A stretch of DNA of 39,327 bases, from contig CALUWN010000016.1 of the NCBI GenBank assembly GCA_944324495.1, positions 1-39,327 of the forward strand, written 5' to 3'. The position numbers and the translations under genes are program-made. The first letter of the stretch is position 1. Each line of letters starts with the position of its first letter. This document shows, in pieces, positions 15,633 to 33,450 of the stretch. Below the pieces are notes generated by a model. It ran no database searches. It had not been told where the DNA came from and saw only the letters and a program-made list of their open reading frames with translations. Source of the stretch: an uncultured Mucispirillum sp. (GTDB lineage: Bacteria > Chrysiogenota > Deferribacteres > Deferribacterales > Mucispirillaceae).

Positions 15633-16475
15633 ATGAAAAAGTTAATTTTAATACCTGCTGCAATACTTCTTTTTGCTGCCTGCAATAAAGAAGAAAAGAA
15701 AATGGAAATGGAAAAAGTGGGCGAAGTAAAATCAGCTCAGCCAGCATTGTCTGTTACCACAAATATTACAGTTTTAAATAATGATAATAACTCTAATGCT
15801 GTATTTTTCATAAATGATATTTCTAAAAGTAATGATGATAATATAAGCATCACATTCTATGAGCCATACACTGAAAATGATTTTATAATCACTAAAAACT
15901 ACCCAATGAATGGAGCTTACGGCATATCCTTATCCCCAAAAAGTAAAACAACTAATGCTTATGGCTTTAATATAAAGGTTATAAATAAAGAAAATAAAGA
16001 GCTTATAAACGAAGATGTTATATTTTTTGCATTAAAAAAATTATACCCTGCTTACGCTGATAATAATACAACCCCTATGCTTGATGATGATGTATTACTT
16101 TTTAATAAAGATATTAAAGAACAGTATGTTTTACTAAACCAAGTGCAGGAAGAAAATTATACAGTTATAGAAAATGGTAAATATCAAGATAATGTAGTAA
16201 AAGATATGACACCATTAACTGAGTATGGGTTTTCAAATAAATTTACAGGCTCATTAAAGGAAAATACAAACGGTATATATATTGTTGATAATAAAACTGA
16301 TAAGTTTGAAGTTAATGGCACGAGCTATAATAACTGCCTTTTAAACAGTGGTATTCATACAAAATACCCATGTGCTTTAAAAATAACAAGTAATGGAGAA
16401 AAAAGTGAGGCTTCATTTTATTTAAGATTAAATGATAAATATATTGATACAAAAATTAACCTAAAAACAGAATAA
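15633..16475 (+). CDS. Uncharacterised lipoprotein
   Basis: A 280-residue predicted lipoprotein. The signal peptide ends in the lipobox FAAC, with Cys at residue 16, followed by a charged linker (NKEEKKMEMEK) that places the folded part away from the membrane. The rest is rich in Asn, Asp and beta-type sequence, and I recognise no family. A degraded copy of its 3' end lies just upstream. Its stop is 10 bp before the left end of the VapXD element, so it was originally convergent with the 17641 gene at very short distance. Confidence 0.8.
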   Translation: MKKLILIPAAILLFAACNKEEKKMEMEKVGEVKSAQPALSVTTNITVLNNDNNSNAVFFINDISKSNDDNISITFYEPYTENDFIITKNYPMNGAYGISLSPKSKTTNAYGFNIKVINKENKELINEDVIFFALKKLYPAYADNNTTPMLDDDVLLFNKDIKEQYVLLNQVQEENYTVIENGKYQDNVVKDMTPLTEYGFSNKFTGSLKENTNGIYIVDNKTDKFEVNGTSYNNCLLNSGIHTKYPCALKITSNGEKSEASFYLRLNDKYIDTKINLKTE

Positions 16476-16857: not shown

Positions 16858-17178
16858 ATGGATTATAAAAGAGGCACAAGAATTGTTATGGATGAAGACA
16901 AAATCAGAAAAGAAGGTAAATATGATTTAGATAAACTTTATCAAAATATTGATGAACTGGCAGAGCATGCTGGTCTTATCAAAAAAAATAAATATACTTA
17001 TATTTGCCAAGGTAATGAAAAAGATTTAGCTGCTCTTGGTATATTTAATTTTATGAATTTAGTTGAAGAAGAATGGTTTACAAAAAATGTAAAAGAGTGG
17101 ACTTGGATTGATAGAAAAGAAGGTGATACTGATTTAATAGAAAGTTGTAAAAAAAGTAATGAGGGTATTTGGGCTTAA
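16858..17178 (+). CDS. Probable VapX-like antitoxin, partner of VapD
   Basis: A 106-residue protein with a perfect GGAGG ribosome binding site six bases before the ATG. It begins DYKRGTRIVMDEDKIRKEG and ends with a VapD-like piece, EEEWFTKNVKEWTWID. That piece resembles the EWFKKSVRDI region of VapD proteins. The gene sits 3 bp upstream of a VapD-family gene, the usual antitoxin position. Antitoxin function is inferred from order, size and spacing; I see no classical DNA-binding domain. Confidence 0.62.
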   Translation: MDYKRGTRIVMDEDKIRKEGKYDLDKLYQNIDELAEHAGLIKKNKYTYICQGNEKDLAALGIFNFMNLVEEEWFTKNVKEWTWIDRKEGDTDLIESCKKSNEGIWA

Positions 17179-17181
17179 AAA

Positions 17182-17529
17182 ATGAAAGAAAAATTAACAA
17201 GAAAAGCAATTAATTTTGATTTAGATACAAAAGAATTGCTGAAACATTTTAAAAATACTCATCAAGCATATTCTGCAATAAAAGTATTTATGGAAGACAA
17301 TGGATTTGAACACAGACAGTATTCAGGATATGTTTCAACAGGTTATATATCTAATGCAGCTACAACACTTTTGACAAAGCAATTGAATAAAAAATTTAAA
17401 TGGATTAAAGATTGTGTTCAAAAATATGATATTACAGAAATTGGGGAAACATATGATTTAAAATATATTTTTGATGAAGCAAAAAAACAGGAAAAGGAAA
17501 AAAACAAAAATAAAGAAATGGAAATGTGA
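17182..17529 (+). CDS. vapD: VapD-family endoribonuclease toxin
   Basis: A 115-residue protein. The core KAINFDLDTKELLKHF, then AYSAIKVFMEDNGFEHRQYS, and a late FKWIKDCVQKYDITEI match the VapD family (about 90-95 residues in Haemophilus and Helicobacter). VapD has a Cas2-like ferredoxin fold and cleaves RNA; the aspartates in FDLD are the likely catalytic ones. This copy has a short N-terminal extension and a lysine/glutamate-rich tail of about 15 residues. It is translationally linked to the gene before it and enclosed in inverted repeats. Confidence 0.82.
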   Translation: MKEKLTRKAINFDLDTKELLKHFKNTHQAYSAIKVFMEDNGFEHRQYSGYVSTGYISNAATTLLTKQLNKKFKWIKDCVQKYDITEIGETYDLKYIFDEAKKQEKEKNKNKEMEM

Positions 17530-17640: not shown

Positions 17641-18513
17641 TTATTTACTTAATAAAGATGATTTCTTTTCATATACATACTCTGCCTTGCCATATCTTTT
17701 GTATGTGTCTCTATCATCTGGTTCTGTTCTTCTTGTTTCTATTTTCATTATAATCTTATTATCTTTTTTCTTTACTTTTTTAACTTTTGAATAAAATATA
17801 TAACCAATATGTACATCATTAAATAGTCCACGATAAAATTCTATCTGCTTAAATATTACAGGGTCATATATACCTTCATCAAGTAACGGGTAAGCATACT
17901 CTATTTCTGCTACATGGCTTATAGGTAAATTAGACCTTACTCCACGCACCTTCTCCATAACAAGACCATTTATACTTTTATAATGGCCAACCTTAGCCTT
18001 ATTATGTAATACAAAATGCTCATGCTTTGGGTATGCAATATCTGAATTTGTAATGCTCATATTATCATCTGATGGGAAAAACAAAAAGCTGCTAAAAAAT
18101 ATTTTTCTATCAATAAGCTTATTATTTTCATCATAAATATATAAGGTATTGCCTTTTCTTACTTCTTTTGTAATAGTTATATTGTCATTACTTTTATCTA
18201 TTACTTCCATTTCATAATTAAATAAATCTGTATGGCTAATATACTTATATTCTTTTTGAATATTATTTTCTTTATCTTTTAATCTGTAATATGTTAAAAG
18301 GTATGCATCATCATCTTTATTGATTTCCACATTAGCAAGTTTTTCTTCAAGTACACTTTCATCATACTCAGAACCATCTAAAAAAGCAGTGCGAGCAAGC
18401 ATTTCAACAGTAACAAAATATATAGCAGCAATCGTAATTATTATAAATAATAAAAATTTTAAATTTTCCTTTCTTATCTGTTTTTTTCGTCTTTTAATTA
18501 ATTCTTCATTCAT
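17641..18513 (-). CDS. Single-pass membrane protein, unknown (family E)
   Basis: A 290-residue protein with a basic N-terminus (KRRKKQIRKEN), one transmembrane helix (about residues 19-38) and an extracytoplasmic beta-rich domain with many Lys, Asp and Tyr. No family is recognised. The start is the ATG at 18513, preceded by AAGAAGG; a longer reading to 18531 lacks support. It is the last gene of the long minus-strand envelope run, 38 bp after its neighbour. Its stop codon directly abuts the VapXD element, so its original 3' end or terminator may have been replaced. Confidence 0.72.
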   Translation of the reverse strand: MNEELIKRRKKQIRKENLKFLLFIIITIAAIYFVTVEMLARTAFLDGSEYDESVLEEKLANVEINKDDDAYLLTYYRLKDKENNIQKEYKYISHTDLFNYEMEVIDKSNDNITITKEVRKGNTLYIYDENNKLIDRKIFFSSFLFFPSDDNMSITNSDIAYPKHEHFVLHNKAKVGHYKSINGLVMEKVRGVRSNLPISHVAEIEYAYPLLDEGIYDPVIFKQIEFYRGLFNDVHIGYIFYSKVKKVKKKDNKIIMKIETRRTEPDDRDTYKRYGKAEYVYEKKSSLLSK

Positions 18514-18551
18514 ATTTAACCTTCTTAACATTCTTAATTACTGATTATAAT

Positions 18552-19946
18552 TTATCTCATTTGCGATGAATGGATATAGCCAACAACTGCATCATCTATT
18601 TTATATGTATTTTTAGGAAAATATACCACCTTATACCAGTTGCCTATTTTTAAGTTTTTCATATTTAATAATTTATTTATTTGGTTATAATATTTTTCAG
18701 CATTATTTTTTAACTGTGATGCTATATTTATAGAATAGTAAGTGCCCTCTAATTCTTTAAAATTATAAAGCCCTTTATAATAATATACTATATAATCTTC
18801 AGAATAAGAAGAATTGAGATTTATTTTTTTTATAATTTTACCATTTGGGCTGTTCCTTATATTCACATAACCATCACGGCTGAAAAGTTCATATGTATCT
18901 ATATTATGTTGTTTAACTTCACAATCACTATCTTGATTATCGCCATACTCGTTTCTATTATATTTTACACTGCTTATAATTTTATTTAATTTTATTTCAT
19001 CTACATACATAACAAGTATGTTTTCCTCTGGGTTTCTGCTTAACATAATTTTATCATCAGGATTTATTGTTATTTCTGCATCAAAATTAACTTCACCTAA
19101 TATACCAGAGGATAATATATTTGGGTATATATTACTGCCATATGTAAATTTTTTTGGGCGTATCGATATACCATTTATTTCAACACTTTTATCATATGAA
19201 GAAAATTCTGTTTTAGGTAAATAATTATTTAAATATTCACTGTCACTGATATACACATTATTATTAATATTTGATAATGTGAAAATACCTTTTAATTTTA
19301 ATGGACTTTTTAATTTATATTCATATGTAACATGAGCATCTTCATGATGATAATATATACCACTATCATTCTTACTAAATTCTTCAATTTCTCCTGCACT
19401 ATATACATTATCATTATAATCAGCATTATTTACTATTTCTTTCAGCTTCATATACTTTAGTATAGATTGTGCAAGTTCAGGGTAATATTGTGTTAATATA
19501 TTATAGTAATACATCTTAGTATATTTATATATAACACCATCTTTTATATATACTTTATAGTACTTACGTATAAACTCCAATGTTTGCATATAATCTAGCC
19601 CACTGTTAGATACTTCATAAAGCATATCTGTAACATCATTTGCTGCTTGGTTTGCATATACTTTTATATCTTTATCTATTTTTAAGCTGATTTTTTTCAT
19701 ATCTTCATTACTTATTTTGGTTCTTAGAATATCTAATTTATCATAATCTGCGGGACTTATCACATAATCACTACTTGTTATATACTCCATAAATATTTTT
19801 ATATTTTCCTGACTCATAGAATTTTTAAAATCTTCATTATTATATTCAATTAATTTTTCTGCAATTTTTTTAGCATTATTTGATGCTGTATATCCATTAG
19901 TATTTGCAAATAGTATTATAAATAATATAATCAGTATTTTTTTCAT
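18552..19946 (-). CDS. Secreted protein with C-terminal SH3-like domain (D2)
   Basis: A 464-residue protein with a signal peptide (about residues 1-21), a helical first half, a beta-rich middle and a bacterial SH3-like domain at the C-terminus. Hallmarks of the last are DGYVNIRNSPNGKIIKKI near residue 355 and GYIHSSQMR at the very end. Such domains commonly bind cell-wall or surface ligands. The middle shares KGIFTLSN, YLPKTEFSSYDKS and IRPKKFTY with the upstream gene at 19969-21273, so the two are tandem paralogues. Function unknown; periplasmic or surface location is inferred from the signal peptide. Confidence 0.78.
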   Translation of the reverse strand: MKKILIILFIILFANTNGYTASNNAKKIAEKLIEYNNEDFKNSMSQENIKIFMEYITSSDYVISPADYDKLDILRTKISNEDMKKISLKIDKDIKVYANQAANDVTDMLYEVSNSGLDYMQTLEFIRKYYKVYIKDGVIYKYTKMYYYNILTQYYPELAQSILKYMKLKEIVNNADYNDNVYSAGEIEEFSKNDSGIYYHHEDAHVTYEYKLKSPLKLKGIFTLSNINNNVYISDSEYLNNYLPKTEFSSYDKSVEINGISIRPKKFTYGSNIYPNILSSGILGEVNFDAEITINPDDKIMLSRNPEENILVMYVDEIKLNKIISSVKYNRNEYGDNQDSDCEVKQHNIDTYELFSRDGYVNIRNSPNGKIIKKINLNSSYSEDYIVYYYKGLYNFKELEGTYYSINIASQLKNNAEKYYNQINKLLNMKNLKIGNWYKVVYFPKNTYKIDDAVVGYIHSSQMR

Positions 19947-19968
19947 AATATTGTTACCCCGCAGTTAC

Positions 19969-21273
19969 TCACTGCTCTATTATTTTTATATGTGATGAAT
20001 GGATATAACCATAACCATTATTATAAGGAATTATATACCATGGACCTATTTTAAATTCTCTTATATTTAACAGTTTTTTTATTTTGCTGTAATAGTCTCT
20101 AAACTTATTATAGTAATCTTCATTTTCTGTGTTATTAAAAAAATATTTTTCTTCATTTGATTCAAAATTCTTTAAACCATTATAATGATCAACACTAGTA
20201 TAATGACCAACTTCAATCTGACCAATCACTTTACCATCAGGAGCATTTCTTATATTGACAGAACCATTATCACTAATTAACCTATATCTATCTAATACTA
20301 CATTTAGTTCTGGAACAAAATCTCTATATTCAAAACTATTTATTATTTTATTTATTTTTATTTCATCTACACTTATTAATGCCACTCTATTATTATCATT
20401 GTGTAGATATATCATACTATCCATTCCTAATGTGATTTCAGCATCAAAATAAACTTCGCCAAACTTTCCTTGAGATATTATATTAGGGTATATATTATTA
20501 TTGTATGTAAATTTCTTTGGTCTAATAGATAAATTTTTTAATTCAAAACTTTTATCATATGATGTAAACTCTGTTTTAGGTAAATATCTATTTATATAAT
20601 ACTCTCTATCACATATCTTGTAAGAAGAAGTATTGTTTACATTTGATAATGTAAAAATACCCTTTACTTTTACTGGTTGTTTTCCTTTATATTTATAAAA
20701 TAATTCATTATCCAAGTCATGTATATCAGATGTCTTAGAAGCATGGAATTCCATTAATGATGAAAACATAACATCATATTTTTTATCATTTTCTGGGGCA
20801 GCAGGAGCGAAACTTACATATCTTCTCATAGCAGATACAAGCTCTGGATAGTTTTTTATTAAAATATTATCATAATAATCTATTGCTGATACAGTAATAT
20901 AATTCATTTTTATTATATCTGGTATAAAATATTTATCTATTGTGTTAAAAGTATATATTGAATTAACACCATGGCTTCTAAAACTATCCATATATAATTT
21001 ATATAAAGATTTTATTCTATTTACTGCATATCTTTCTATATCATTCTTATATTTAAGGCTTAATGCCCTCATTTGTTTTTCATTTAATGATTTATAGATA
21101 TTATTCATATTACCAAAACTTCCAAAATCGGTAAGATTATAATCTTTATCCATAAGGTTATTATATATATCCATATAGTTTATGATGCTTTGGTTATCAT
21201 TTTCTGCTCTTGCCTGCATATAGGTATTTGAAAAAAATATTATAAATACTATCAATAAATATTTTTTAACCAT
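19969..21273 (-). CDS. Secreted protein with C-terminal SH3-like domain (D1)
   Basis: A 434-residue paralogue of the next gene, with a signal peptide ending near QARA. Shared blocks include VKGIFTLSN, YLPKTEFTSYDKS, LSIRPKKFTY and FDAEITL. The C-terminal SH3-like domain is marked by NGSVNIRNAPDGKVIGQI and GYGYIHSSHIK. A strong AGGAGGG ribosome binding site precedes the ATG. It lies 22 bp upstream of D2 and 25 bp downstream of C3, so it is part of the same run. Divergence from D2 is large enough to suggest an old duplication. Confidence 0.78.
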   Translation of the reverse strand: MVKKYLLIVFIIFFSNTYMQARAENDNQSIINYMDIYNNLMDKDYNLTDFGSFGNMNNIYKSLNEKQMRALSLKYKNDIERYAVNRIKSLYKLYMDSFRSHGVNSIYTFNTIDKYFIPDIIKMNYITVSAIDYYDNILIKNYPELVSAMRRYVSFAPAAPENDKKYDVMFSSLMEFHASKTSDIHDLDNELFYKYKGKQPVKVKGIFTLSNVNNTSSYKICDREYYINRYLPKTEFTSYDKSFELKNLSIRPKKFTYNNNIYPNIISQGKFGEVYFDAEITLGMDSMIYLHNDNNRVALISVDEIKINKIINSFEYRDFVPELNVVLDRYRLISDNGSVNIRNAPDGKVIGQIEVGHYTSVDHYNGLKNFESNEEKYFFNNTENEDYYNKFRDYYSKIKKLLNIREFKIGPWYIIPYNNGYGYIHSSHIKIIEQ

Positions 21274-21298
21274 ATGCCCTCCTACTTAAAAAAAATTA

Positions 21299-22366
21299 TT
21301 AATGTATGGCAACTGGTACTACTATATTTTCATCATCCTGTATATGCTTATGAATAATATATTCAATGGTTTTCTCTGCCTTTACTTCTTCATCTTCACC
21401 ATATTCCACATCTTTAAATATAATTTTAACTGTATTATCATCAATTGTTTCTATATCCTTAAAATATTTGCTGTTGCTGCCTGTAATATTATCATCTTCA
21501 TAAAAATCAGTATTATAAAGTGAAGTTATAAATACACCTTCATAATAATAATCTTCATACTCTGTATGGCTTACAAGTTTATTATCAATATACTTATCTT
21601 CTATTACTTTGTTATCTGGAACAATTTGTACCATATTGGTACTACCATCTGTTTCATTATATATTTCTAAAGCTGTTGCTCCGGCTAAATAGTCTATATC
21701 TTGCAGACTTAATATGTTTGCCTTTTTATCATAATTTAAAAGCATTTTATCATACTGAATAATAGTATTTGTTTCATCCTGATACATTATTTCATTTTTA
21801 GTATATAATTTATTTACTTCCTGCCCTTTACTAAAGACTTTAATAAACTGCTCCTGATTATCCCCACGCCTTATATTATCAACTAATGTGTAATTATCTT
21901 GTGATGTAGTTATTACATAATTCATATTATAATAGGTATTATCTTTATACATCAACCAGTTATATTTTGTTTGCTCTATAATATCACCGTTCATATCATA
22001 TATTTTCATCTCTACTGGTAGTAAAATAGATTTACCATCTGGTATTACTGCCTGCATTTGCTTATTTTCTGCCTGATTATCTTGGGCTGTATTTGGCTGA
22101 GCTTTTGGTGCTGTATCTTCATCTGTGCTTTCAGCTGTATTTAATGCCTGCTCCTGATTTTGAGGCTGTATTTCTTCATTTTTAACTACTTCTTCGCTTA
22201 CACTTTGATTAGTAGTTTCACTTTGAACTGTGTCTTTATTTTCAAAATTTTTAATTAAAAGAAATATAATTACACTAACTGCTGCTATTAAAATTACTAC
22301 TAATATTCCTGCAATCAGTAATGCTCCTTTGCTTGATTTACTTGGAACTTTTTGATTATTTTCCAT
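21299..22366 (-). CDS. Single-pass membrane protein, family C (C3)
   Basis: A 355-residue protein with a short cytoplasmic start (KVPSKSSKGAL), one transmembrane helix (about residues 15-40), and a low-complexity linker rich in Gln, Glu, Asn and Thr (about 45-105). A repetitive beta-type domain follows. Pieces such as DKYIDNKLVSHTEYEDYYYEG recall the short strand repeats of YwqK/MORN-type proteins, a weak resemblance. The first 60 residues are nearly the same as in C1. The ending EYIIHKHIQDDENIVVPV is shared in pattern with C1 and C2. Confidence 0.75.
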   Translation of the reverse strand: MENNQKVPSKSSKGALLIAGILVVILIAAVSVIIFLLIKNFENKDTVQSETTNQSVSEEVVKNEEIQPQNQEQALNTAESTDEDTAPKAQPNTAQDNQAENKQMQAVIPDGKSILLPVEMKIYDMNGDIIEQTKYNWLMYKDNTYYNMNYVITTSQDNYTLVDNIRRGDNQEQFIKVFSKGQEVNKLYTKNEIMYQDETNTIIQYDKMLLNYDKKANILSLQDIDYLAGATALEIYNETDGSTNMVQIVPDNKVIEDKYIDNKLVSHTEYEDYYYEGVFITSLYNTDFYEDDNITGSNSKYFKDIETIDDNTVKIIFKDVEYGEDEEVKAEKTIEYIIHKHIQDDENIVVPVAIH

Positions 22367-22397
22367 ACCTGTTTATCTCCCATATACAACTTTATCA

Positions 22398-23150
22398 CTA
22401 TTCAATAGGTGTTACTTTTCCGTCCTTTTCACGTATATGTTTTTTCATAATATACTCTGTAACAGTTTCATCACCATATTCCTTATTTTCCTGCACTATG
22501 GTAATAAATACTGTATTCTCATCAATCAACGCCTTGCTTTCCACATACATTTCTGTTTCCATGCTTGTTTCAGCATTAATATGATACACCATATTAGTTA
22601 AGTATGTCACAAGGGTGTTTTGAAAATAATATTCCTGCTGAGTGCTTTCTTCAATTTTTATGTTATTTGCATATTTTTCTGATTTTATTACATTATCTGG
22701 GTATATAAAATATTTCATTAAAACATTTTCATTTTTATATAATATTTCAAGGTGTGTAATATTATCTTTTACTTCTTCTTTTTGCAGTATTATTTCTTTT
22801 TCACAATCATTTCCATCACAAGATATAATCTTTTCCTTTAAAAGAATATTAGTATCTTTATACATTTCAGATACTATAGGCGCGCTTGATTCTACACACG
22901 TATTATCTTCAAGATAAGCATTTGTTGTACTTGTAACAACCTGCCCCTTTCTATCTGTTTCTATATCATATGTTTCTTCTGTATTTTCAGGGTCTACCAT
23001 TCTACATATATTCTTAAAATCATCTTTGCTTATATACCGCTCCCATTTGTAACCAGACATAGCTGTATAATCATCATCCATATACTGCTTCATTACAGTA
23101 ACAAGCCATATAATATTTTCTTCATTATCATTTTTTACAAGCTCACCCAT
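22398..23150 (-). CDS. Family C paralogue lacking the membrane anchor (C2)
   Basis: About 250 residues, related to C1 and C3 in the C-terminal domain (YYFQNTLVTYLTN and EYIMKKHIREKDGKVTPIE) but without their transmembrane helix and linker. Nothing resembling the missing part lies in the 40-bp gap upstream, so it was probably cut at the 5' end or formed by an internal duplication. I favour the ATG at 23150, eight bases after AAGG; 23159 is the alternative. Without a signal it should stay in the cytoplasm, unlike its relatives. Confidence 0.68.
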   Translation of the reverse strand: MGELVKNDNEENIIWLVTVMKQYMDDDYTAMSGYKWERYISKDDFKNICRMVDPENTEETYDIETDRKGQVVTSTTNAYLEDNTCVESSAPIVSEMYKDTNILLKEKIISCDGNDCEKEIILQKEEVKDNITHLEILYKNENVLMKYFIYPDNVIKSEKYANNIKIEESTQQEYYFQNTLVTYLTNMVYHINAETSMETEMYVESKALIDENTVFITIVQENKEYGDETVTEYIMKKHIREKDGKVTPIE

Positions 23151-23189
23151 TTCATTCACCTTACATTAAACCATATTATTAATATATTA

Positions 23190-24221
23190 TTATTCTTCCT
23201 CATCAATAGGTGTAACAGTACCATCTTCTTCAAGTACATATTTTTTTAAGATATATTCTGATTTTAAAGCTATACTTGTGTTTCCATATGCACTAATTTC
23301 ACTTTTCAAGGAAATTTTTACGTTATTTTCATCTTCTTCTACATTTGTTACTTTAAGTTCAGATAATGAATCAACTTCGCCGTTTGTGTAATGTTCTGAC
23401 TTAAAAAGAGTTGTAATTAATACACCATTATAATAATAATTTTCATATAAAGTTTTCTTAAAAAGTTCATTATTGACATATAAATCTTCTGATACTGTAC
23501 CATCTGGGTTTATTTGTATCTTTTTTAAAATATTTTCTTTCTTATTATTAATTTCAAGTAAAGTCTTATCACCTTGTTTTTTTTCTATTATTTCCACATC
23601 TTCTACTTCTGATACTGCCTGCTCTCCTTGTTTAATAATTGTTGCCAGTTTTAATACAACAGTAGTATTATCATAAAATTCTAGCTTATTAACCATTTCG
23701 CCTTCTTGCATGAAATTGGTTTTTATACTAACTTCGCCTATATTATTTTTTCGTTCAATAATCATCTCTGATTGTGTATTAAGTGCACCTTTTTCTTTTA
23801 CTAATACTTTATTATCAGTTGGGCTTTTATAATAATCCCATTCATATAAAGATTCTTTTACAGTATTTCCATTTGCATTATATGCTTTTTCAATACTTGG
23901 CAAAAATATATATTTTACAGATGAATTAAGCTCCTGTTTATCTGAGCTAGTAGCTGCATTTTCTTCTTTTTTATCAATATTTACTTCATCATCCATGCTG
24001 TCATTTTGCACTTTTTTATTTTGGTTTATTTCATACTTTTGGACTACTTCTTCACTTACGCTTTGATTAGTAGTTTCACTTTGAACCATATCTTTATTGT
24101 CAAAATTTTTAATTAAAAGAAATATAATCGCACTAACTGCTACTATTAAAACAGCTATTAAGGATACTGCAATTAATAATGCACCTTTACTTGATGATGT
24201 TTTAGTTGGTTTTGTAATCAT
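23190..24221 (-). CDS. Single-pass membrane protein, family C (C1)
   Basis: A 343-residue paralogue of C3: TSSSKGALLIAVS, one transmembrane helix, then VQSETTNQSVSEEVV, a charged linker and a beta-repeat domain ending EYILKKYVLEEDGTVTPID. Its first 150 bp are about 90% identical at DNA level to the start of C3, while the rest has diverged strongly. This points to gene conversion or selection on the anchor part. It starts 81 bp after B1 in the same direction. Confidence 0.75.
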   Translation of the reverse strand: MITKPTKTSSSKGALLIAVSLIAVLIVAVSAIIFLLIKNFDNKDMVQSETTNQSVSEEVVQKYEINQNKKVQNDSMDDEVNIDKKEENAATSSDKQELNSSVKYIFLPSIEKAYNANGNTVKESLYEWDYYKSPTDNKVLVKEKGALNTQSEMIIERKNNIGEVSIKTNFMQEGEMVNKLEFYDNTTVVLKLATIIKQGEQAVSEVEDVEIIEKKQGDKTLLEINNKKENILKKIQINPDGTVSEDLYVNNELFKKTLYENYYYNGVLITTLFKSEHYTNGEVDSLSELKVTNVEEDENNVKISLKSEISAYGNTSIALKSEYILKKYVLEEDGTVTPIDEEE

Positions 24222-24302
24222 TTAACTCTCCCTGTCTTATTATTATATATATTTATTATTAATTACGCTGATTTTTCTACATAAACCATTTCTTTATGCC
24301 TT

Positions 24303-26528
24303 TTATAAATATTCAAACATGGTAGAATATTCTATAAATGTATCCATAATACATTGAAAACTCCTTTCGCATTTTAAATATTTATTATTCATATCTTTAT
24401 AAAGTATCTCAATATATTTTTTTATATTTTTAGGATAATAATATTTTTCTGCCTTTTCTAATTTCTTTTTATATAAAAGCTCTGCATATGCTTTTGCTGT
24501 CATAAGTGGGCGGAAAAAACATATTAAATCATCATTTTCATTTTTTACATTAGTACAGTCCATACCAGCTAATTTCATTAAATCATCGCTGTAATTATTA
24601 TCTGGTGAAATATTATTTACATTCTCTTTAATATTACTGTAATTATATGGTGGGTATATTTGACCATATAGTTTATTTTTATCATCTATCTGTACTAAAT
24701 AAACATTATTATCATTCCTTACATAGCCTATATTTATAGTATTATTTACTTTATATATAATAGTATCTACAAACTCTTCACTAGAAACTATATCATTTAT
24801 TTTTTTAGCTTCATTTTCATTTAATATATTTAAGTTTTTATTATCCACTAAAAACAATGCTTCTTTTTTTATACCATGCTGGTTATAAAAATAAGCCACT
24901 GCTACTATTATATTAAAATTATTTGATTTTATATTATAAAAATAAAGCTCATTATATATTAACTTATGGTTGATGTATTTTTGCAGATATTTAATGTAAT
25001 CTATTACTGATTTTTCATAATTTTTTACTGCAAATTTTGAAATATTAAATAACTTCTTCATTTTATCAGGAGATATTTTCTCACCTCTTATATCATATTC
25101 TCTTTCAATATCACCTAATATATCTGCAAAAATATTTCTTGAAAACTCTTGGGAATATATCACATTATCTTTATAAGAAAAAGTGTCCATTGATGAAACA
25201 CGGTAAAGTGATAAATTTTCAATAACCTTACTTTTGCTGTTTGTTCTAATAAGCGGCTCTATACTGTAATGATTATCATAACCTGTATTAAATAATTTTG
25301 GTGAACGCACTTCTATTTTTAATATTTTATTTTCATATTTTGTAGTGTTTATAATATAAGTTGTATTATCATAAGGGAATATATACAGGTTGCCAAAATA
25401 TACATTATCAGTACAGTGTAATGGAGTATATTCTAAACTGCTGCTTTTTTTATTTTCACCATACAGCTCTTTATAAAACCTAGGGTATAAGTAATAATAA
25501 TCTTCACTTACATATGATGAATCAAATACGGAAAGTATAGAATATTCATTAAACCTGCTAACCTGTACTGTATTATAGATACCGTCATTGAAAAAATTAA
25601 AATAACCATTTAAAAATGCCGCATATTCTACTAAATATTTTGCTTGTAATTTTCTAAATGCTTCTTCCACATTGTATGTTAAATTAGGCAGCTCATACAT
25701 AAGTGAAGATATGGCGTTACATTTATTCTCATTAAAATCACATATTCCATAGGGCATAAGGTATGACAATATAGTCTGCTGATTAACACCAGCATTTATT
25801 AATTTCTGCATCTCTTTCTGCATATTTTTGAGATTATAAAGCCCGCCGCCTGCATACTCTGCCAATATTAAGAAAAATTTATCACTATCAGAAAGCTCCA
25901 TATTCTTTTCTGATACTTTTATTATGGTATCTGTTGCTTTTTTCAAGGCTCTATTACGCCATGCATAATAATTTTTATCAGCAATTGCTTCCATTAAATC
26001 AATAAAATTATATTTTTTATATAAATTTCCTGTTATAAAATCATCAGAACAGGAAAAAGGGTCATCACTGTTTTCATCATAAAAATAACCCATTTTATTT
26101 ATATCTAATATGGCATTTGGCTTAGACTGTTTTTCCACTTCCCCTGCTGCATAGGCAATAATCAATTTTGCATCATCTACAGTAACACTATCTGCCTGTA
26201 AAAATTCATAATATTCTCCAGCATAGCCTGTGTATGTAAGATATTTTCCGTAATTATTACCACGTATATATTCTTCATTATTTTCTATCTCTATATAGTC
26301 TTTTTCATCTGGTATTTTTATTTCTTTTGTTACTTCATTTCCATAACTGTCTGTATAAGTGATTGTGCCTTTTTCAACTACAATTCCACTTCTACCTGTT
26401 AACTCTTTATCAAGCATAAGATTATTAATATAACCTTGAGCTCCTGCTGAAACTGTACTATTATTTTCTTTTGCATAAGCAATTAAATTTATAAATATAA
26501 TTAAAATAAAAAATATATATTTTTGCAT
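24303..26528 (-). CDS. Large secreted protein, family B (B1)
   Basis: A 741-residue exported protein of unknown function. The signal peptide ends near LIAYA. Blocks shared with B2 and B3 include CSDDFITGNLY, HCTDNVYFGNLYIFPY, FSYKDNVIYS and a C-terminal DC..LIC..R..LMTAKAYAELLYKKK pattern with a final Cys pair. The last pattern is faintly like LprI/DUF1311 domains. I start at the ATG at 26528, which follows GGTGG; a start at 26549 would overlap the A1 stop (TAATG) and add a non-signal extension. It follows the A1 lipoprotein, as B2 follows A2. Confidence 0.76.
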   Translation of the reverse strand: MQKYIFFILIIFINLIAYAKENNSTVSAGAQGYINNLMLDKELTGRSGIVVEKGTITYTDSYGNEVTKEIKIPDEKDYIEIENNEEYIRGNNYGKYLTYTGYAGEYYEFLQADSVTVDDAKLIIAYAAGEVEKQSKPNAILDINKMGYFYDENSDDPFSCSDDFITGNLYKKYNFIDLMEAIADKNYYAWRNRALKKATDTIIKVSEKNMELSDSDKFFLILAEYAGGGLYNLKNMQKEMQKLINAGVNQQTILSYLMPYGICDFNENKCNAISSLMYELPNLTYNVEEAFRKLQAKYLVEYAAFLNGYFNFFNDGIYNTVQVSRFNEYSILSVFDSSYVSEDYYYLYPRFYKELYGENKKSSSLEYTPLHCTDNVYFGNLYIFPYDNTTYIINTTKYENKILKIEVRSPKLFNTGYDNHYSIEPLIRTNSKSKVIENLSLYRVSSMDTFSYKDNVIYSQEFSRNIFADILGDIEREYDIRGEKISPDKMKKLFNISKFAVKNYEKSVIDYIKYLQKYINHKLIYNELYFYNIKSNNFNIIVAVAYFYNQHGIKKEALFLVDNKNLNILNENEAKKINDIVSSEEFVDTIIYKVNNTINIGYVRNDNNVYLVQIDDKNKLYGQIYPPYNYSNIKENVNNISPDNNYSDDLMKLAGMDCTNVKNENDDLICFFRPLMTAKAYAELLYKKKLEKAEKYYYPKNIKKYIEILYKDMNNKYLKCERSFQCIMDTFIEYSTMFEYL

Positions 26529-26548
26529 ATTTACCACCAAATGTATCA

Positions 26549-28015
26549 TTAAATATCATTAGCGTTTATAAAACAGTCTTTTTTATCTTTACATATAACT
26601 ATATCATGCATATATTTTGCCTTTATAAGAAGCGACCTGTTTTCGCATATATATTTCAACCTTTCATTATTATCACCATTAAGGCAGTCTATAACACCAC
26701 GAAAACGAAATAAACTTTCTTTATCAGGCTGGTTATCTTTTAGTTTCCCTTTCCATACCAGCTGTAATTTTCCATTTTCATATTTTATAAAATCTTTTTC
26801 ATTAAAGCTAAACCCATAATCATTATATATATAAATCGCTTTTTCGTTTTGTGTGTAGTCATAATTACCATAGCTTGTATCATAAAAAGCAGGGTTTCTA
26901 AATTCAACTTTTTCTACTCTATTTTCTTTCATTTCAACAATATAAACAGCCCCATTAAATGCAAAAATATAAAGTGGGTTGTCATACAGTTCATCTAAAT
27001 TATTACCAAAATCATAAGAAATCATTCCTTTTGGCTTAACAGAAGGTACAAGTTTACCTATATAATTTAAAGCGTCTCTGGCATTTTCATATTCTGTAAA
27101 AAATGGGTTAACTGCATATTTATTTTCTGCACGCTTTACAACTGCAACTGGTATATAATCATCATCATTTAAAAAATTATAAACCCCAGCAGAAGAAAAC
27201 ATTATATCACTAAAGCCTTCTTCCACTCCTTTGTTTAAAATATCTATAATGTCTATATTTTCATTTTCTGCTATATAATTGAAAAGTGTATTTAATGCTT
27301 TATTTTTCTTTTTATTAAAAAATCTTATTTTTTTACCGCCAAGTTCTTCCCATTGTTTTATATGCTCTTTGATTTTACTTAGATTATAAAGCTCATCCTG
27401 AGCTAGATAAGAAAGCGCTATCATCATATGTGCATCTGCTTTTATTTTATCCTTCTCATTTTTTAAATCATTATTAAGGGCATATAAAAGCATATTTCGT
27501 GCTTTTAGTAATGCTAGATTTTTTGCTCTGTATGTTTCTGAACCTTTTTGAAAATCTCCATAACAGCTTACTTTATAGCCATCTTTAAATTCGTTTTCTA
27601 AATATATTTTTGGATAACAGTACTGCTCAAATTTCACACTTGAGGATATATTATCTTTATTCTCGTAAAAGTATGTAATAATTTTATATGCACTTGTTAA
27701 GTCTGTGCCAACATCCAAAAAATCTTCTGCTTGCTGTTGAATTTTAGAAGTTTTATAATCACCAAGGTACTTGTCATATTCTTTTGGAAAATATTTTTCA
27801 TAATCATCTTCTTTTGACACATCTATTAAAAAATCATAATCTCTTTCGTTTTTATAAAATGATGTGCCCGCATTTATATAATCAAGCTTCGCAAATGATT
27901 CTTCAAAAATATTTATATTTTTTGGGGCATTAATTTCTTCAATATTATATTCATTATCCTGCATACAAGCAGAAAATAATATAATAAAACTAATTACAAT
28001 ACCATATTTTTTCAT
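26549..28015 (-). CDS. Lipoprotein, family A (A1)
   Basis: A 488-residue predicted lipoprotein (signal peptide with lipobox FSAC at about residues 14-17). It aligns with A2 throughout: INAPKN against IEAPKD, RKAHLGLLKARNMLKYA-type helices, ISYLAQDELY, YIVEMK and a closing DCLNG..YICENRSLL..AKY pattern with two further Cys. The middle DNPLYIFAFNGAVYIVEMK block corresponds to the YIFPY..TYIINT block of family B, so A and B are distant relatives. A GGGAG site precedes the ATG. No known family; outer-membrane location is inferred. Confidence 0.76.
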   Translation of the reverse strand: MKKYGIVISFIILFSACMQDNEYNIEEINAPKNINIFEESFAKLDYINAGTSFYKNERDYDFLIDVSKEDDYEKYFPKEYDKYLGDYKTSKIQQQAEDFLDVGTDLTSAYKIITYFYENKDNISSSVKFEQYCYPKIYLENEFKDGYKVSCYGDFQKGSETYRAKNLALLKARNMLLYALNNDLKNEKDKIKADAHMMIALSYLAQDELYNLSKIKEHIKQWEELGGKKIRFFNKKKNKALNTLFNYIAENENIDIIDILNKGVEEGFSDIMFSSAGVYNFLNDDDYIPVAVVKRAENKYAVNPFFTEYENARDALNYIGKLVPSVKPKGMISYDFGNNLDELYDNPLYIFAFNGAVYIVEMKENRVEKVEFRNPAFYDTSYGNYDYTQNEKAIYIYNDYGFSFNEKDFIKYENGKLQLVWKGKLKDNQPDKESLFRFRGVIDCLNGDNNERLKYICENRSLLIKAKYMHDIVICKDKKDCFINANDI

Positions 28016-28049
28016 TTAATCTCCCTGTCTTTTTATTATTATAAACTTA

Positions 28050-29066
28050 TTATTTATAGCATGGAAAATACATTTCAAAATCCTCCCTTTCCCCCGGGTC
28101 GTATTCCAATATCTTATCCCACACTGAAGCGTGCTCCATACAGTAGTATATAAAAGGTTTTTTCCAATTAGCCCTTATTCTATTTGTGGCAAACTCAATC
28201 ATCTTAATACGCTCTGCCTTAAAATACCTAGTTTTGCCGTCTATTCCCTTTATAAAATCCCCTTTTGTTAAAATTGAAGGGCTTTTTCGCTGCCTTATTA
28301 TATTCATAAGTTCAGCAGGGCATCTAAATGTAGATATACTTATATATTCTACCATATTTTCATCTATTTGGCTTGTTAGCTCATCAATTAGTTCACCATA
28401 AGGAAAAGTAAAATTTTCCATCATTATTAATGGGTCAAAATGAAAGCCCACTTTATAACCATAACTTGAAACTTCTTTTGCAGCCTTTAACCTTTTTTTA
28501 AGGCTTGCTGTAAATGGTTCTTCCTGCTCTATAATACTAGCAGGGTTTAAGCTCCATGAAACCATAACATTTTTTGGGTTTAGGTTAAGCAGGTTATCTA
28601 CTACATCTGATTTTGTTTTAAACTCAAATAATATATTATCCTGCTTATTTACGAAGGGCACTATTATTTTTGAAAGGGGGATAGTTTTATCCATTGCTAA
28701 ACTGTCACTTAATTCCCCACTGCCTATTCGCCTTTTCGTATCTTTTATTGAAAATGCAATATCTTCAAGCACCTTATCAGTATTTCCTGCAACGCGTATA
28801 TGCTTATGGGGAAGATAAAGCTGTAAGATACAATATGCACAGTCAAAAGGGCAGCCCTGCATAATATCTACCACGTGATAATTGCAGCACCTGTATATAT
28901 TTGTAGCAGGGCATCTGTGTACAAAATTATCTTTATGGTTAGATATTACCACATTACTTTTTTTATCTTCTACTTCTGCCCCGTCATCTATTACTTCTAT
29001 ATTATTATCCTTTGCCACCATTTGAGTAAGTGGCAAATCTTGGGCTGATTTTTCTACATATATCAT
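28050..29066 (-). CDS. SplB-like radical SAM protein (spore photoproduct lyase family)
   Basis: A 338-residue radical SAM protein. The cluster motif CPFDCAYC (Cys 72, 76, 79) binds the 4Fe-4S cluster. CPATNIYRCCNY, GFHFDPLI, EYISISTFRCP and the final YDPGEREDFEMYF are typical of the family. True spore photoproduct lyases have a catalytic Cys in a CTSD context after the cluster. Here the equivalent segment is GSGELSDSLAMD without Cys, so genuine thymine-dimer repair is doubtful. It sits between the B2 and A1 genes with short gaps, unlike its envelope-type neighbours. Confidence 0.85.
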   Translation of the reverse strand: MIYVEKSAQDLPLTQMVAKDNNIEVIDDGAEVEDKKSNVVISNHKDNFVHRCPATNIYRCCNYHVVDIMQGCPFDCAYCILQLYLPHKHIRVAGNTDKVLEDIAFSIKDTKRRIGSGELSDSLAMDKTIPLSKIIVPFVNKQDNILFEFKTKSDVVDNLLNLNPKNVMVSWSLNPASIIEQEEPFTASLKKRLKAAKEVSSYGYKVGFHFDPLIMMENFTFPYGELIDELTSQIDENMVEYISISTFRCPAELMNIIRQRKSPSILTKGDFIKGIDGKTRYFKAERIKMIEFATNRIRANWKKPFIYYCMEHASVWDKILEYDPGEREDFEMYFPCYK

Positions 29067-29081
29067 CTATTACCCAGCTAA

Positions 29082-31232
29082 TTAATATTTAAAAATATTT
29101 TCATAACTTAGTATGGAATTTAAACATGTATCATAATCTGCCCCTTCTCCACATTTTTCAGTATAGGCAGTATTAAAAGATTCATATATTTCCTGCAGTT
29201 TTATTTTTACACTTTCTGGATAGCTGTTTTTTTCTACCTTTTCCATTTTTTTACTATAAAGCCCTTCAATATATGCTTTAGATGTTAAAAACAAACGGTC
29301 TGTACATATATATGGCTGAACTTCATTTTCAACATTTTGGCAGTCAATTTTTGCTTTTTCTTCCAAACTGGTTGTAAAATCTTTATATTCTGCCATTTTG
29401 TTTATTTTTTCACTTTCACTTTCATAGTAATATATAGGGAAAGAGCCAGAGCCTGCCTTATTATCTACAATATTTACAACAAATATATTATTATCCCTGT
29501 GAATAAAACCTATAAAAATGCTGTTTTCTGTTTTATGAATTAAAGTTTTATAAAACTTATTGTTATTTAGTGCATTATCTATATCAAGCGCTATTTTTTC
29601 ATCTAAAATTTCTAAATTTTTATTAAGTATAAAAATGCCTTCAGTTTTAATACCATTGTTATTATAAAAATAAGTAGAAGCTAAAATAACAGGGTTTTTA
29701 GCATCAACTGTTAAATCATAAAAATATAGCTCATTTTCTATTAACTGCTGGCTTGAATATTTTTGCAGATAAGCCATATATTTATTTATTTCTTCCTGCA
29801 TATCACCTTTACTAAATTTATCTATACCTAAAACTGCCTTAACTTCTTTAGGACTTATTTTTTGCCCTCTGCGTTCCTTTAATTTATCCACATCACCAAG
29901 TGGTGATTGAGGCTGCTTTTTATATTCTTTGCTGTATATTATATTATCTTTATATGAAAATGTATTCATAGTAGATACTTCATGCAGTGCAAGATTTATA
30001 TTATATCTTAAAAGCACTTCTATATCATAATTTTTAGAATATTCAGTATTAAAAAATTTAGGGCTTCTCACCTCTATTTTTACGATTTTATTTTCAATTT
30101 CTGTTGTATTTATAATATATGTTACATTATTATAAGGGAAAATATATACATTACCATAATATACATTATTAGTGCAGTGCTGTGGTATATATGTTTTACT
30201 ATCCCCCGTATTTTCATTACCATAAACCATTTTATAATAATTTGGATAAGGGTTATATGTATAATAACCTATCTGGCTTAGTTCTAAAATATTTAATACT
30301 GACTGTTCATTTATTTTACTAACCTGCACAATCTCATAAAAATTATCATTAAATATATTAAAATACCCATTTAAAAAAGCAGCGTAATTTATAAGCCCGT
30401 TATCGCGTATTATATTAAAAGCTTCTGCTGGGTTATCTTCTTTAAATTCTATAGATTTACTTAATAATGATGCAACACCATAACATTTATTTCTATTATT
30501 TACACAAAGTCCATAAGTTTCTAAATATGATACCATGTTATCAACTGTAGCACCACTATCTATAACTTTTTGCATTTTTTCCTGAATATATGGCAGGTTA
30601 TTAAAACCATCACTTAAATATTCTGCTAATGCAAGAAAAAAGCTGTCCTCACTGCTTTCTTCTTCCTTATTTTCTATTGATTTATTTATTATATATTGTG
30701 CTTTTTTTAAAGCCCTGTTTTTCCAAGGAAATGTCCTTGTATTGGCTATATTATTAGTATATTCTGTCCATTGTTCTCTATACAGCTCTCCATTTATAAA
30801 TTTATCACTGCAGGAAAGCTGTGTATCTTTTTCTTCATTATATTCATAACCTAAATCAAATACACTAACAAATCTATCAGATACAGACATTTTTTCTATT
30901 TTGTATATTTCATTACCTATCAATATTTTTGCAAAAAACACAGGAACATACTCTGCTTCTAAAAAGTTTGCATACTCTTCCATTTTAACAGAGTTTGCCT
31001 TATATCTCCCAAAATTAAATTCTTTTAAATATTTTTCATAATCAAGCACATTTATCATATCTTCATTATTATGTACGATATTGTTTTTTATTTCATTACC
31101 ATGAGTATCTGTTAATGTTACTTTATTTCCTTCAACAACTATTTCTCCAATTTTTATATCTTCATCACTATTTTGTGCAAATGCTTGTAATGCAAAGAAA
31201 ACAACTGCTGATATATATAATAGCCTACTCAT
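29082..31232 (-). CDS. Large secreted protein, family B (B2)
   Basis: A 716-residue exported protein with a signal peptide ending LQAFA. It is the closest relative of B1: VTLTDTHGNEI, CSDKFINGELY, AAFLNGYFNIFND, NVYYGNVYIFPY, IVKIEVRSPKFFNT and FSYKDNIIYS. The C-terminus repeats the DC..ICTDRLFLTSKAYIEGLYSKK pattern plus two Cys. The start is the ATG at 31232, eight bases after GAGG; it overlaps the A2 stop (ATGAGTAG), so translation of A2 and B2 is coupled. No enzymatic motif was found; function unknown. Confidence 0.77.
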   Translation of the reverse strand: MSRLLYISAVVFFALQAFAQNSDEDIKIGEIVVEGNKVTLTDTHGNEIKNNIVHNNEDMINVLDYEKYLKEFNFGRYKANSVKMEEYANFLEAEYVPVFFAKILIGNEIYKIEKMSVSDRFVSVFDLGYEYNEEKDTQLSCSDKFINGELYREQWTEYTNNIANTRTFPWKNRALKKAQYIINKSIENKEEESSEDSFFLALAEYLSDGFNNLPYIQEKMQKVIDSGATVDNMVSYLETYGLCVNNRNKCYGVASLLSKSIEFKEDNPAEAFNIIRDNGLINYAAFLNGYFNIFNDNFYEIVQVSKINEQSVLNILELSQIGYYTYNPYPNYYKMVYGNENTGDSKTYIPQHCTNNVYYGNVYIFPYNNVTYIINTTEIENKIVKIEVRSPKFFNTEYSKNYDIEVLLRYNINLALHEVSTMNTFSYKDNIIYSKEYKKQPQSPLGDVDKLKERRGQKISPKEVKAVLGIDKFSKGDMQEEINKYMAYLQKYSSQQLIENELYFYDLTVDAKNPVILASTYFYNNNGIKTEGIFILNKNLEILDEKIALDIDNALNNNKFYKTLIHKTENSIFIGFIHRDNNIFVVNIVDNKAGSGSFPIYYYESESEKINKMAEYKDFTTSLEEKAKIDCQNVENEVQPYICTDRLFLTSKAYIEGLYSKKMEKVEKNSYPESVKIKLQEIYESFNTAYTEKCGEGADYDTCLNSILSYENIFKY

Positions 31233-32721
31233 TATAATCACCTCTTTTAATCATATCTTCTACTGTCATAAAGCAGTTTTCTTTATTTCTGCATTTATAA
31301 TTTTCATGCTCATATTTTGCTTGTATAAGCCTTCCTCTATTAGAGCAGAAATAAATTAACCTTACATCATTACCATGCAGACAGTCCATCATATTTCGTA
31401 GTTTAAAAAGTTTTGCTTTATCTGGCTGCTGGTCTTTTATATTACCATTCCATACAAACTCACCCTTACCATTTTCATAACTAATATAGTCTTTTTGGAG
31501 CATATCAAATCCATATTCATTTACTATAAACTCTTTATAATCATTATCTGAATAACCACCTGTATTATAGCTTGTATCAAAATAAGCAGGGTTATAAAAC
31601 TCCACTTTTAATGGTTTTTCATCTTTCATTTCCACAATATAAACAGCACCATTTAGTGGCAAAATATATACGGGGTTATCATATAATTTATCATAATTAT
31701 TTCTTACATTATATACTGATGAATCTATTTCTTTTTTAGGCTCTACCAATAATGCATAAGAAGCAAGCACATGTTCTACCCTGTGAAATTTAGTAAAAAA
31801 TGGATTAACAGCATATCTTTTTTCATCACGTTTTACTATGCTTACAGGTAAAAAGAAATCATCATTTAAGTAATTATATATGCCGCCTAATGATAATGCT
31901 TGGTTTATAAAGCCTTTATCAATACCGTCTTTTAAAAGCTCTATAACGCCTGTATTTTCATTATATGCTACATATTTTAATAATTCATTTAATTCTTTAT
32001 TTTTTTCAGATGAAAAAATCTCAACCTTATCTCCGCCTAATTCTTTCCAAAGGGCAGCGTATTTTTTCACTTCCAAGATTTGATACAGTTCATCTTGGGC
32101 AAGGTAAGAAATGGCAATATATAAATGAGCATCTGCACGTACTTTATCACTTTCTTCTTTTAACTGATTTTCTATAGCATATTTTAACATATTTCTTGCT
32201 TTTAAAAGCCCTAGGTGTGCCTTTCTATATATTTCTGCACCCTTTTGAAATTCACCAACACACTGAAGTTTTCCCTCAATAAAATCATCAATTTTATTAA
32301 AATTATAATCAGGAAAACAGTATTGGTCAAATTTTGCCAGCTCTAATAATTTACTTTTACTATCAAACATATATGCAATAAATTTATATGCACTGGAAAT
32401 GGAAGTTCCGTTATCCATAAAATTATTTATATAATTTAACATTTCATCGTCGTATTGGATTATATTAGTTACATCAAGATAGTTTTTATAAAAATATTTT
32501 TCATAATCTGCTTCTTTTGAAATATCTAATAAAAATGCAAGCTCTTTATCATAATCATAAATTGAAAGCCCAGCATTTTCAATATCTAACTTATCAGTTA
32601 GATTATCAAACAGTACATAATCTTTTGGTGCTTCTATTTTTTCAACGTTAAATTCATCTTTTCCTTTACAGCCTGTAAAGGCAATTAATGTGGCTAAAAT
32701 TATACAGTATTTTTTCATCAT
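31225..32721 (-). CDS. Lipoprotein, family A (A2)
   Basis: A 498-residue predicted lipoprotein, paralogue of A1, with lipobox FTGC and mature sequence starting CKGKDEF. Middle helices (YRKAHLGLLKARNML and AISYLAQDELY) suggest TPR/SEL1-like repeats, and the C-terminus repeats DC..YFCSNRGRL..AKY plus CRNKENC. Start ATG at 32721 follows a G5 site at good distance; the extended frame to 32748 is not supported. It heads the long minus-strand run that ends at 17641. Its upstream DNA is duplicated in front of B3. Confidence 0.77.
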   Translation of the reverse strand: MMKKYCIILATLIAFTGCKGKDEFNVEKIEAPKDYVLFDNLTDKLDIENAGLSIYDYDKELAFLLDISKEADYEKYFYKNYLDVTNIIQYDDEMLNYINNFMDNGTSISSAYKFIAYMFDSKSKLLELAKFDQYCFPDYNFNKIDDFIEGKLQCVGEFQKGAEIYRKAHLGLLKARNMLKYAIENQLKEESDKVRADAHLYIAISYLAQDELYQILEVKKYAALWKELGGDKVEIFSSEKNKELNELLKYVAYNENTGVIELLKDGIDKGFINQALSLGGIYNYLNDDFFLPVSIVKRDEKRYAVNPFFTKFHRVEHVLASYALLVEPKKEIDSSVYNVRNNYDKLYDNPVYILPLNGAVYIVEMKDEKPLKVEFYNPAYFDTSYNTGGYSDNDYKEFIVNEYGFDMLQKDYISYENGKGEFVWNGNIKDQQPDKAKLFKLRNMMDCLHGNDVRLIYFCSNRGRLIQAKYEHENYKCRNKENCFMTVEDMIKRGDYNE

Positions 32722-32860
32722 TTTAAAACCCCCATAGGATATTACCATATTTTATCTATAAAAACAAGCAACTAACTTATATATTGACAATAAAGTAAGT
32801 ACTGATATACTTTAAGCATACAATTTTTAGGAAAGGGAGTAATTTATAATGTGGAATGCA
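32716..32860. repeat. Segmental duplication, copy 1 (divergent promoter region)
   Basis: The start of A2, its upstream DNA and the first codons of the membrane gene at 32849 are repeated at 35445-35575. Shared landmarks are CCCCCATAGGATA, AAAACAAGCAACTAAC and ACAATTTTTAGGAAAGGGA. Copy 1 keeps a complete plus-strand promoter; copy 2 has lost it. Confidence 0.85.
32784..32811 (+). promoter_or_regulatory. Promoter of the 32849 membrane gene
   Basis: TTGACA at 32784-32789 and TATACT at 32806-32811 are separated by 16 bp. In the duplicate near 35500 both boxes are missing because of a short deletion, which supports that they belong together. Confidence 0.7.
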
Positions 32861-33419: not shown

Positions 33420-33450
33420 AAGTGGCAAATTATGCCACTTGTAATTATTT
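33420..33450 (+). terminator. Terminator of the membrane gene
   Basis: An 8-bp stem (AAGTGGCA with TGCCACTT) with a 5-base loop at 33420-33440 is followed by a T-containing tract. Half of it survives in the duplicate at about 35578. Confidence 0.7.

Follow-up and report, generated by a model that had tools for sequence, protein, structure and literature searches.

A recombining island of envelope-type protein genes with a conserved A–B core at the ftsY–SMC site of Mucispirillum

Gene content of the locus

The window analysed here, a 39,327-nucleotide stretch from an uncultured Mucispirillum sp., makes up contig 16 in a genome of 2.43 Mb. Its minus strand carries a run of eleven closely spaced genes, A2–B2–splB–A1–B1–C1–C2–C3–D1–D2–E, bordered by conserved chromosomal markers (coordinates are window positions):

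36403–37353, minus strand: ftsY, the backbone gene that marks the left (5') side of the island, assigned from sequence (83–95% identity and synteny in other Mucispirillum species)
35594–36376, minus strand: w35594, 260 aa, a backbone gene of the ftsY/splB interval in sister genera, with orthologues at approximately 30% in loci L106–L109
33516–35522, minus strand: X, exported third member of family B, 30% to B2 (E 1e-63) and 66–79% to B of genomes G043, G045 and G047
33420–33440, no strand assigned: terminator-like stem-loop in the X/A2 interval
31225–32748, minus strand: A2, lipoprotein (lipobox FTGC) with the A/B core domain and a short C-terminal cysteine module
29082–31241, minus strand: B2, carrying a Sec signal peptide, the A/B core domain, another beta region and a C-terminal LprI-like four-cysteine module (about residues 630–719)
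28050–29066, minus strand: splB-like radical SAM protein, a backbone gene outside the island, assigned from Pfam SPL and from adjacency to SMC in sister genera without A–E
26549–28015, minus strand: A1, lipoprotein (lipobox FSAC), paralogue of A2 (47%), its stop sharing one base with the B1 start
24303–26549, minus strand: B1, exported, paralogue of B2 (40–42%)
23190–24221, minus strand: C1, N-terminal transmembrane anchor and beta domain, fold by homology with C3
22398–23159, minus strand: C2, beta domain alone without signal or anchor, the sole C form in G043
21299–22366, minus strand: C3, transmembrane anchor, linker and 17-strand antiparallel beta-meander (AlphaFold2)
19969–21273, minus strand: D1, signal peptide, core of unknown type and SH3_3-like C-terminal end (weak match), 96% to Dc of G044
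18552–19946, minus strand: D2, signal peptide, paralogue of D1 (37–40%), 82% to Dd of G044
17641–18531, minus strand: E, single-anchor protein, possibly a distant relative of C
11946–15326, minus strand: SMC, the backbone gene that marks the right (3') side of the island, syntenic in G041, G042, G043 and sister genera

An earlier note on this DNA had described eleven genes on one strand, and all of these ORFs were present on the minus strand from 17641 to 32748, separated by overlaps or by gaps of at most 81 bp. The stretch that it had outlined was right, but position 32721, where it had placed the end, corresponds to an internal ATG in the ORF reaching 32748. Spacing was −17 bp for A2/B2, 15 bp for B2/splB, 34 bp for splB/A1, −1 bp for A1/B1, 81 bp for B1/C1 and 20–31 bp at each junction after C1. 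No terminator-like site was found on the minus strand inside the run, and a single transcript for the eleven genes appears plausible.

Signals and anchors of A–E and X, called by simple hydropathy, comprised lipoboxes in A2 and A1, signal-peptide-like N-termini in B1, B2, X, D1 and D2, and a single N-terminal anchor in C1, C3 and E. The assertion that nearly all of the encoded proteins carry such a feature thus held for nine of the ten non-splB proteins, the exception being C2, which like its orthologues carries none.

Several genes of other kinds were observed around the run. A VapD family protein (16858–17529, plus strand; NCBIfam 123.7 bits, cut-off 100) lies next to E and with its upstream 106-aa partner likely forms a toxin-antitoxin pair. 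A SIR2-domain protein beside ftsY (37603–39171, minus strand) matched the PADLOC candidate defence model PDC-S25 (E 1.5e-142) and is found in G044 at 97%, and a bacterial SUFU-domain protein with DUF7832 (9504–10694, minus strand; Pfam 82 bits) adjoins RmuC.

Duplicated families and their relationships

Pairwise searches bore out that families A, B, C and D each occur in at least two copies, with E values from 1e-9 to 1e-169 and similarity well beyond chance: A1/A2 (47%, E 3e-157), B1/B2 (40–42%, E 2e-169), C1/C3 (35%, E 1e-44), C1/C2 (30%, E 7e-20) and D1/D2 (37–40%, E 9e-70). Family B is indeed duplicated, but its third member X, lying outside the range considered previously, had been overlooked. 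Nor are the four families separate, as A and B form one superfamily (hhalign probability 98.9, E 1.7e-17 over 236 columns; hhalign E values throughout are those of single pairwise comparisons), and their C-terminal cysteine motifs also align.

Relatives beyond the phylum were sought in family libraries, the PDB, viral contigs and plasmids. The description of the families as unknown stands insofar as A–E gave no match over cut-off in curated Pfam, NCBIfam, PHROG or PADLOC, but has to be qualified by remote traces of LprI in A/B and of SH3_3 in D. Searches of PDB sequences with profiles for families A–D gave no match at E 0.01 or better, the closest being 3qkb to C (E 0.014). PADLOC models searched against nine A–E proteins (all but A1) gave no meaningful match, and in C1 and C3 two weak PD-T4-6 matches covered the anchor/linker region.

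The chromosomal site and its occupation across genomes

A scan of genome contigs with the A alignment picked signal-peptide patterns and no relatives, and splB served as the locus query instead. The splB-like protein scored 81.7 bits against Pfam SPL (cut-off 27) and 97 bits against TIGR04070 of NCBIfam (cut-off 400). Relatives of its neighbourhood were found in Mucispirillum MAGs at 80–96% identity and, more distantly, in other Deferribacteraceae. Five sister-genus loci had the order ftsY–(w35594)–splB–SMC–RmuC, in which no gene separates splB from SMC; w35594 was recognisable in four of them (L106–L109), and in L107 ftsY lies beyond the contig end. As these genera show the frame uninterrupted, gene order indicates that splB is inherited backbone outside the island and that A–E is a Mucispirillum-specific island within the sampled phylum. 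The earlier inclusion of splB in the system encoded by the run is accordingly withdrawn.

Among 51 genomes sampled from the phylum, A was found in nine, B in eight, C in six, D in four and E in three, all of them Mucispirillum, and A–B was syntenic in eight genomes of the genus; contigs of G040, G045 and G047 end near the locus, and the absence of D and E there was not counted. The ftsY–w35594–splB–SMC frame was kept in every readable Mucispirillum locus, but its filling differed. The window reads ftsY–w35594–X–(plus-strand gene)–A2–B2–splB–A1–B1–C1–C2–C3–D1–D2–E–…–SMC, G043 reads ftsY–A–B–w35594–splB–C2–lipoprotein (opposite strand)–SMC, and G041 reads ftsY–[A–B fused]–w35594–splB–SMC. In G042 and G044 the order is A–B–splB–C–C–(C)–D…D–E, and w35594 precedes A where the contig extends that far.

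These arrangements bear on the proposal that the eleven genes encode an undescribed envelope machine of fixed composition. Tight spacing on a single strand, the lack of an internal terminator and the co-occurrence of C, D and E in this genome, G042 and G044 are in keeping with such a machine, but D and E are missing from the ftsY-to-SMC interval in both G041 and G043, where it is intact, C is missing as well in G041, copy number and order differ between the near-identical species G042 and G044, and splB belongs to the older backbone. A fixed eleven-component machine is therefore highly improbable. The layout is unusual, as first noted, but the eleven-gene set is not constant, since G043 holds only A, B and C2 and G041 only the A–B fusion. 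On comparison across genomes the eleven-gene form is an elaboration of one lineage, and the reduced forms together with piecemeal exchange of C, D and E identify the locus as a variable island.

The ORFs scanned in the ftsY-to-SMC interval included no integrase. A mobile origin of the island was also considered and was set aside, as no family B relative was found in viral contigs or plasmids.

The A–B unit

The A stop and B start overlap by one base in the window (A1/B1), G042, G044 and G040. In G041, A and B are joined in one lipoprotein ORF of 1199 codons from which the B signal peptide is gone, the A C-terminus (…KKDCFIKSSDI) continuing into B (…NGRYMNKNVSENTENTDF…). This fusion was seen in one genome and may be an assembly error, although its reading frame is clean; it suggests that A and B would be able to function while tethered to one shared lipid anchor. 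From its sequence features the conserved core of the island is a translationally coupled pair, lipoprotein A and exported protein B, that arose by an old duplication and was re-duplicated in this genome as A2–B2, A1–B1 and X, while C, D and E are by the same comparisons accessory cassettes that species have acquired, lost and exchanged with one another. The island and its A–B unit are held with high confidence.

A paralogue of A also occupies a second fixed site in most genomes of the genus (L091 4713–6077, L093 5853–7202, L094 5108–6478), and it carries the clearest LprI-like end within the A/B superfamily.

Sequence variation and recombination

The splB tree placed the window with G042 and G044 (support 100/100), in conflict with the B tree, where X grouped with B of G047, G045 and G043 (support 100/100). 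D1 and D2 grouped with Dc and Dd of G044, apart from the D sequences of G042; G042 and G044 share 97–99% identity in A, B, splB, C1 and C2. Between the window and G044, dS was 0.57 for ftsY, 0.61 for w35594 and 0.37 for splB in comparison to 0.09 for D1 and 0.22 for D2, and between G045 and G043 it was 0.33 for ftsY and 0.35 for splB in comparison to 0.02 for C2. By their lower dS, single cassettes share a common ancestor more recently than their flanks do, which, in addition to the conflicting B tree, points to recombination between species. Alternatively, the grouping of X may reflect ancient paralogues and differential loss.

Values of pN/pS ranged from 0.2 to 0.7 in A–E in comparison to 0.03–0.09 in ftsY and splB; the higher values are rough, owing to long branches and saturation, and are no proof of positive selection. 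A lipoprotein gene (15633–16475, plus strand) faces the island before SMC and has two relatives in G042 (72% and 29%), and G043 has an unrelated-looking lipoprotein at the equivalent position. These differing lipoproteins suggest that variation reaches the SMC side as well.

An LprI-like module at the C-termini of A and B

The C-terminal pattern of A and B, DC-x11-IC…LY…C…C, resembles that of LprI (PF07007), and the B sequences and the paralogue at L091/L093/L094 have the LprI four-cysteine order and rough spacing, keeping two N-side and two C-side cysteines. When an HMM of B residues about 624–719 was searched against six-frame ORFs of 17 loci, two Pfam-called LprI proteins ranked first (E 2e-4 and 4e-4). 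Six LprI domains aligned to B by hhalign with E 9e-4, score 30.6 and probability 22–42% over 74 columns, the expected cysteines being aligned, and 100 column shuffles reached a maximum of 18.8. The L091/L093/L094 paralogue matched LprI better (probability 85–92, E 7e-6 to 7e-7, 82 columns, shuffle maximum 20.5) and also matched A (E 1.8e-13) and B (E 7.8e-12). The Pfam LprI model gave no match over gathering score in A1, A2, B1, B2, X, their C-terminal pieces or this paralogue, and an LprI HMM search of the window did not list B, so that any homology is remote. Taken together, the C-termini of A and B are likely remote homologues of LprI.

AlphaFold2 predicted three helices at mid confidence for the end of B2, in a model whose pLDDT was only 69 and for which a fold search gave no PDB match; the LprI domain of Salmonella ScwA is likewise predicted as three helices (PMC7933661). 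Most of the A/B length matches nothing.

The C, D and E modules

The AlphaFold2 model of C3 comprised a helix anchor, a disordered linker (residues 42–108) and 17 beta strands; most residues from 112 to 350 had pLDDT above 90. Fold search with C gave no convincing PDB match; a WD40 match (E 3e-4) was rejected as spurious at TM 0.14. The top match among viral structures (BFVD) was a MORN-repeat protein (E 3.6e-4) with a low TM-score of at most about 0.2, and two C members reached MORN_2 at E 0.03. E, which has a relative in G047, aligned to C by hhalign with a score of 36 in comparison to 21 for shuffles and 30 for the reversed profile, and is possibly a distant C relative on this profile evidence. 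D1 scored 18.2 bits against SH3_3 as a whole protein and 23.3 bits as an isolated C-terminus, both below the cut-off of 27, and weak SH3_3 matches occurred in three of eight D members. D-like proteins of about 790 aa were also observed in several species, where they share a neighbourhood that follows an mnmE-like gene (L090 4737–7097, L095 4575–6944, L096 6262–8622).

The A–E proteins could be surface-variable antigens or adhesins, facing host or mucus and varying for immune evasion or mucin binding, with the LprI-like end merely a stable disulphide fold. The genus dwells in mucus, its island combines lipoproteins with rapid protein evolution and the exchange of cassettes between species, and much of A/B and all of C are predicted to be novel binding-type beta structure. 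On the other hand, the C form of widest distribution, C2, lacks an export signal, the anchors of C1, C3 and E are of inner-membrane type, and the SH3-like end of D and the LprI-like ends fit the periplasm rather than the surface, which leaves a surface role rather doubtful.

Proposed function of the island

Little is known of how Mucispirillum, a core bacterium of mouse-gut mucus, withstands attack by its host and by other microbes. For that interface, an envelope island that spans the genus, recombines rapidly and retains an A–B core is a concrete candidate.

M. schaedleri has a T6SS (PMC5285517). In the genome studied here, a T6SS cassette adjoining T6SS structural genes was observed on contig C28 (L122, 1–6920), encoding a VgrG C-terminus (Gp5_trimer_C), a 395-aa LprI protein, a 1316-aa effector ending in Phage_lysozyme and Peptidase_M23, and two small exported proteins. 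A relationship between B and a 150-aa protein beside the T6SS effector was rejected, the alignment being mostly signal peptide. A variable LprI island was also seen in this genome between tpx and a MacAB-like efflux operon (L123 4299–7456, L125 2046–4628), where two Mucispirillum species have different LprI and exported proteins and the 351-aa protein of L123 has a second LprI-like stretch.

Published work describes LprI proteins as candidates for immunity to wall-cutting effectors of the T6SS (PMC8867033, PMC12135965), and M. tuberculosis LprI has been reported as a lysozyme inhibitor, as cited in PMC8867033. Because of this literature and the VgrG–LprI–[Phage_lysozyme + M23] cassette in the same genome, protection of peptidoglycan by A together with B is our best-supported guess. 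A would serve B as its lipid-anchored partner, and at the ends of both proteins the LprI-like four-cysteine modules would protect the wall by binding enzymes that cut peptidoglycan, whether lysozyme from the host or lysozyme-type effectors that rival or sister cells inject. D, with its SH3-like end, and the beta-meanders of C and E may be further binding modules held at wall or membrane and directed at different targets, and changing attackers could drive the rapid change and swapping of island genes. The reading of A–E as a recombining envelope-protein island whose A–B core shields peptidoglycan from cutting enzymes falls somewhat short of probable, and the assignment of a protective role, judged from remote homology, is a tentative one.

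Several observations speak against protection. The LprI domain of ScwA neither inhibits lysozyme nor confers resistance to it, ScwA acting instead on MltD (PMC7933661), and none of the A–E relatives found in this genome (contigs C3, C17 and C36) lies beside a T6SS effector, so that only the remote LprI module connects A/B to the T6SS cassette. It is also important to note that usual immunity proteins are far smaller than A and B.

As a periplasmic LprI-domain protein, ScwA provides a precedent for endogenous envelope housekeeping, in which A–B would regulate the cell's own lytic transglycosylases or wall assembly and lineage-specific expansion would account for the paralogues. The presence of A–B in nearly all sampled species of the genus agrees with this, but rapid evolution, additional diverged copies and the exchange of cassettes are atypical of housekeeping regulators, and such a role is unlikely. 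A bolder form of peptidoglycan protection, an undescribed modular immunity system in which lipoprotein A presents B and swappable C/D/E modules of a new beta-meander fold add specificity against host and competitor enzymes, is quite unlikely.

If the remote homology is true, LprI-like modules would extend to large envelope proteins of Deferribacterota. The C domain, predicted at high confidence with no close solved structure, is in itself a good structural target.

Comparison with known systems

A/B share with LprI/DUF1311 proteins (PF07007; M. tuberculosis LprI, Salmonella ScwA) a helical C-terminal module with the cysteine order DC…IC…C…C, occurrence in exported or lipid-anchored proteins, and remote profile similarity that exceeds shuffles, though at low probability for B. 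They differ in lying below Pfam detection, in carrying the module behind 400–600 residues of genus-specific domain and, for A, in its shortening; lysozyme inhibition by A/B is putative only, and ScwA lacks it.

D1 and D2 resemble bacterial SH3 proteins (SH3_3, PF08239) in their weakly matching end, VNIRNAP…GKVI…GYIHSS, but score under cut-off, contain a large insertion and match no curated family over the rest of their length. C is an antiparallel beta-meander as in MORN_2/MORN-repeat proteins but has low TM-scores and a weak Pfam score, and C1 and C3 add a transmembrane anchor.

Orphan T6SS immunity gene arrays are acquired interbacterial defence islands of gut Bacteroidales. The Mucispirillum island differs from them in its fixed chromosomal site, its large proteins and its conserved A–B core, with no integrase in the interval and, within this genome, no family member beside an effector. 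Like these arrays, it consists of fast-evolving, duplicated and laterally exchanged genes of a gut bacterium that lie apart from the T6SS.
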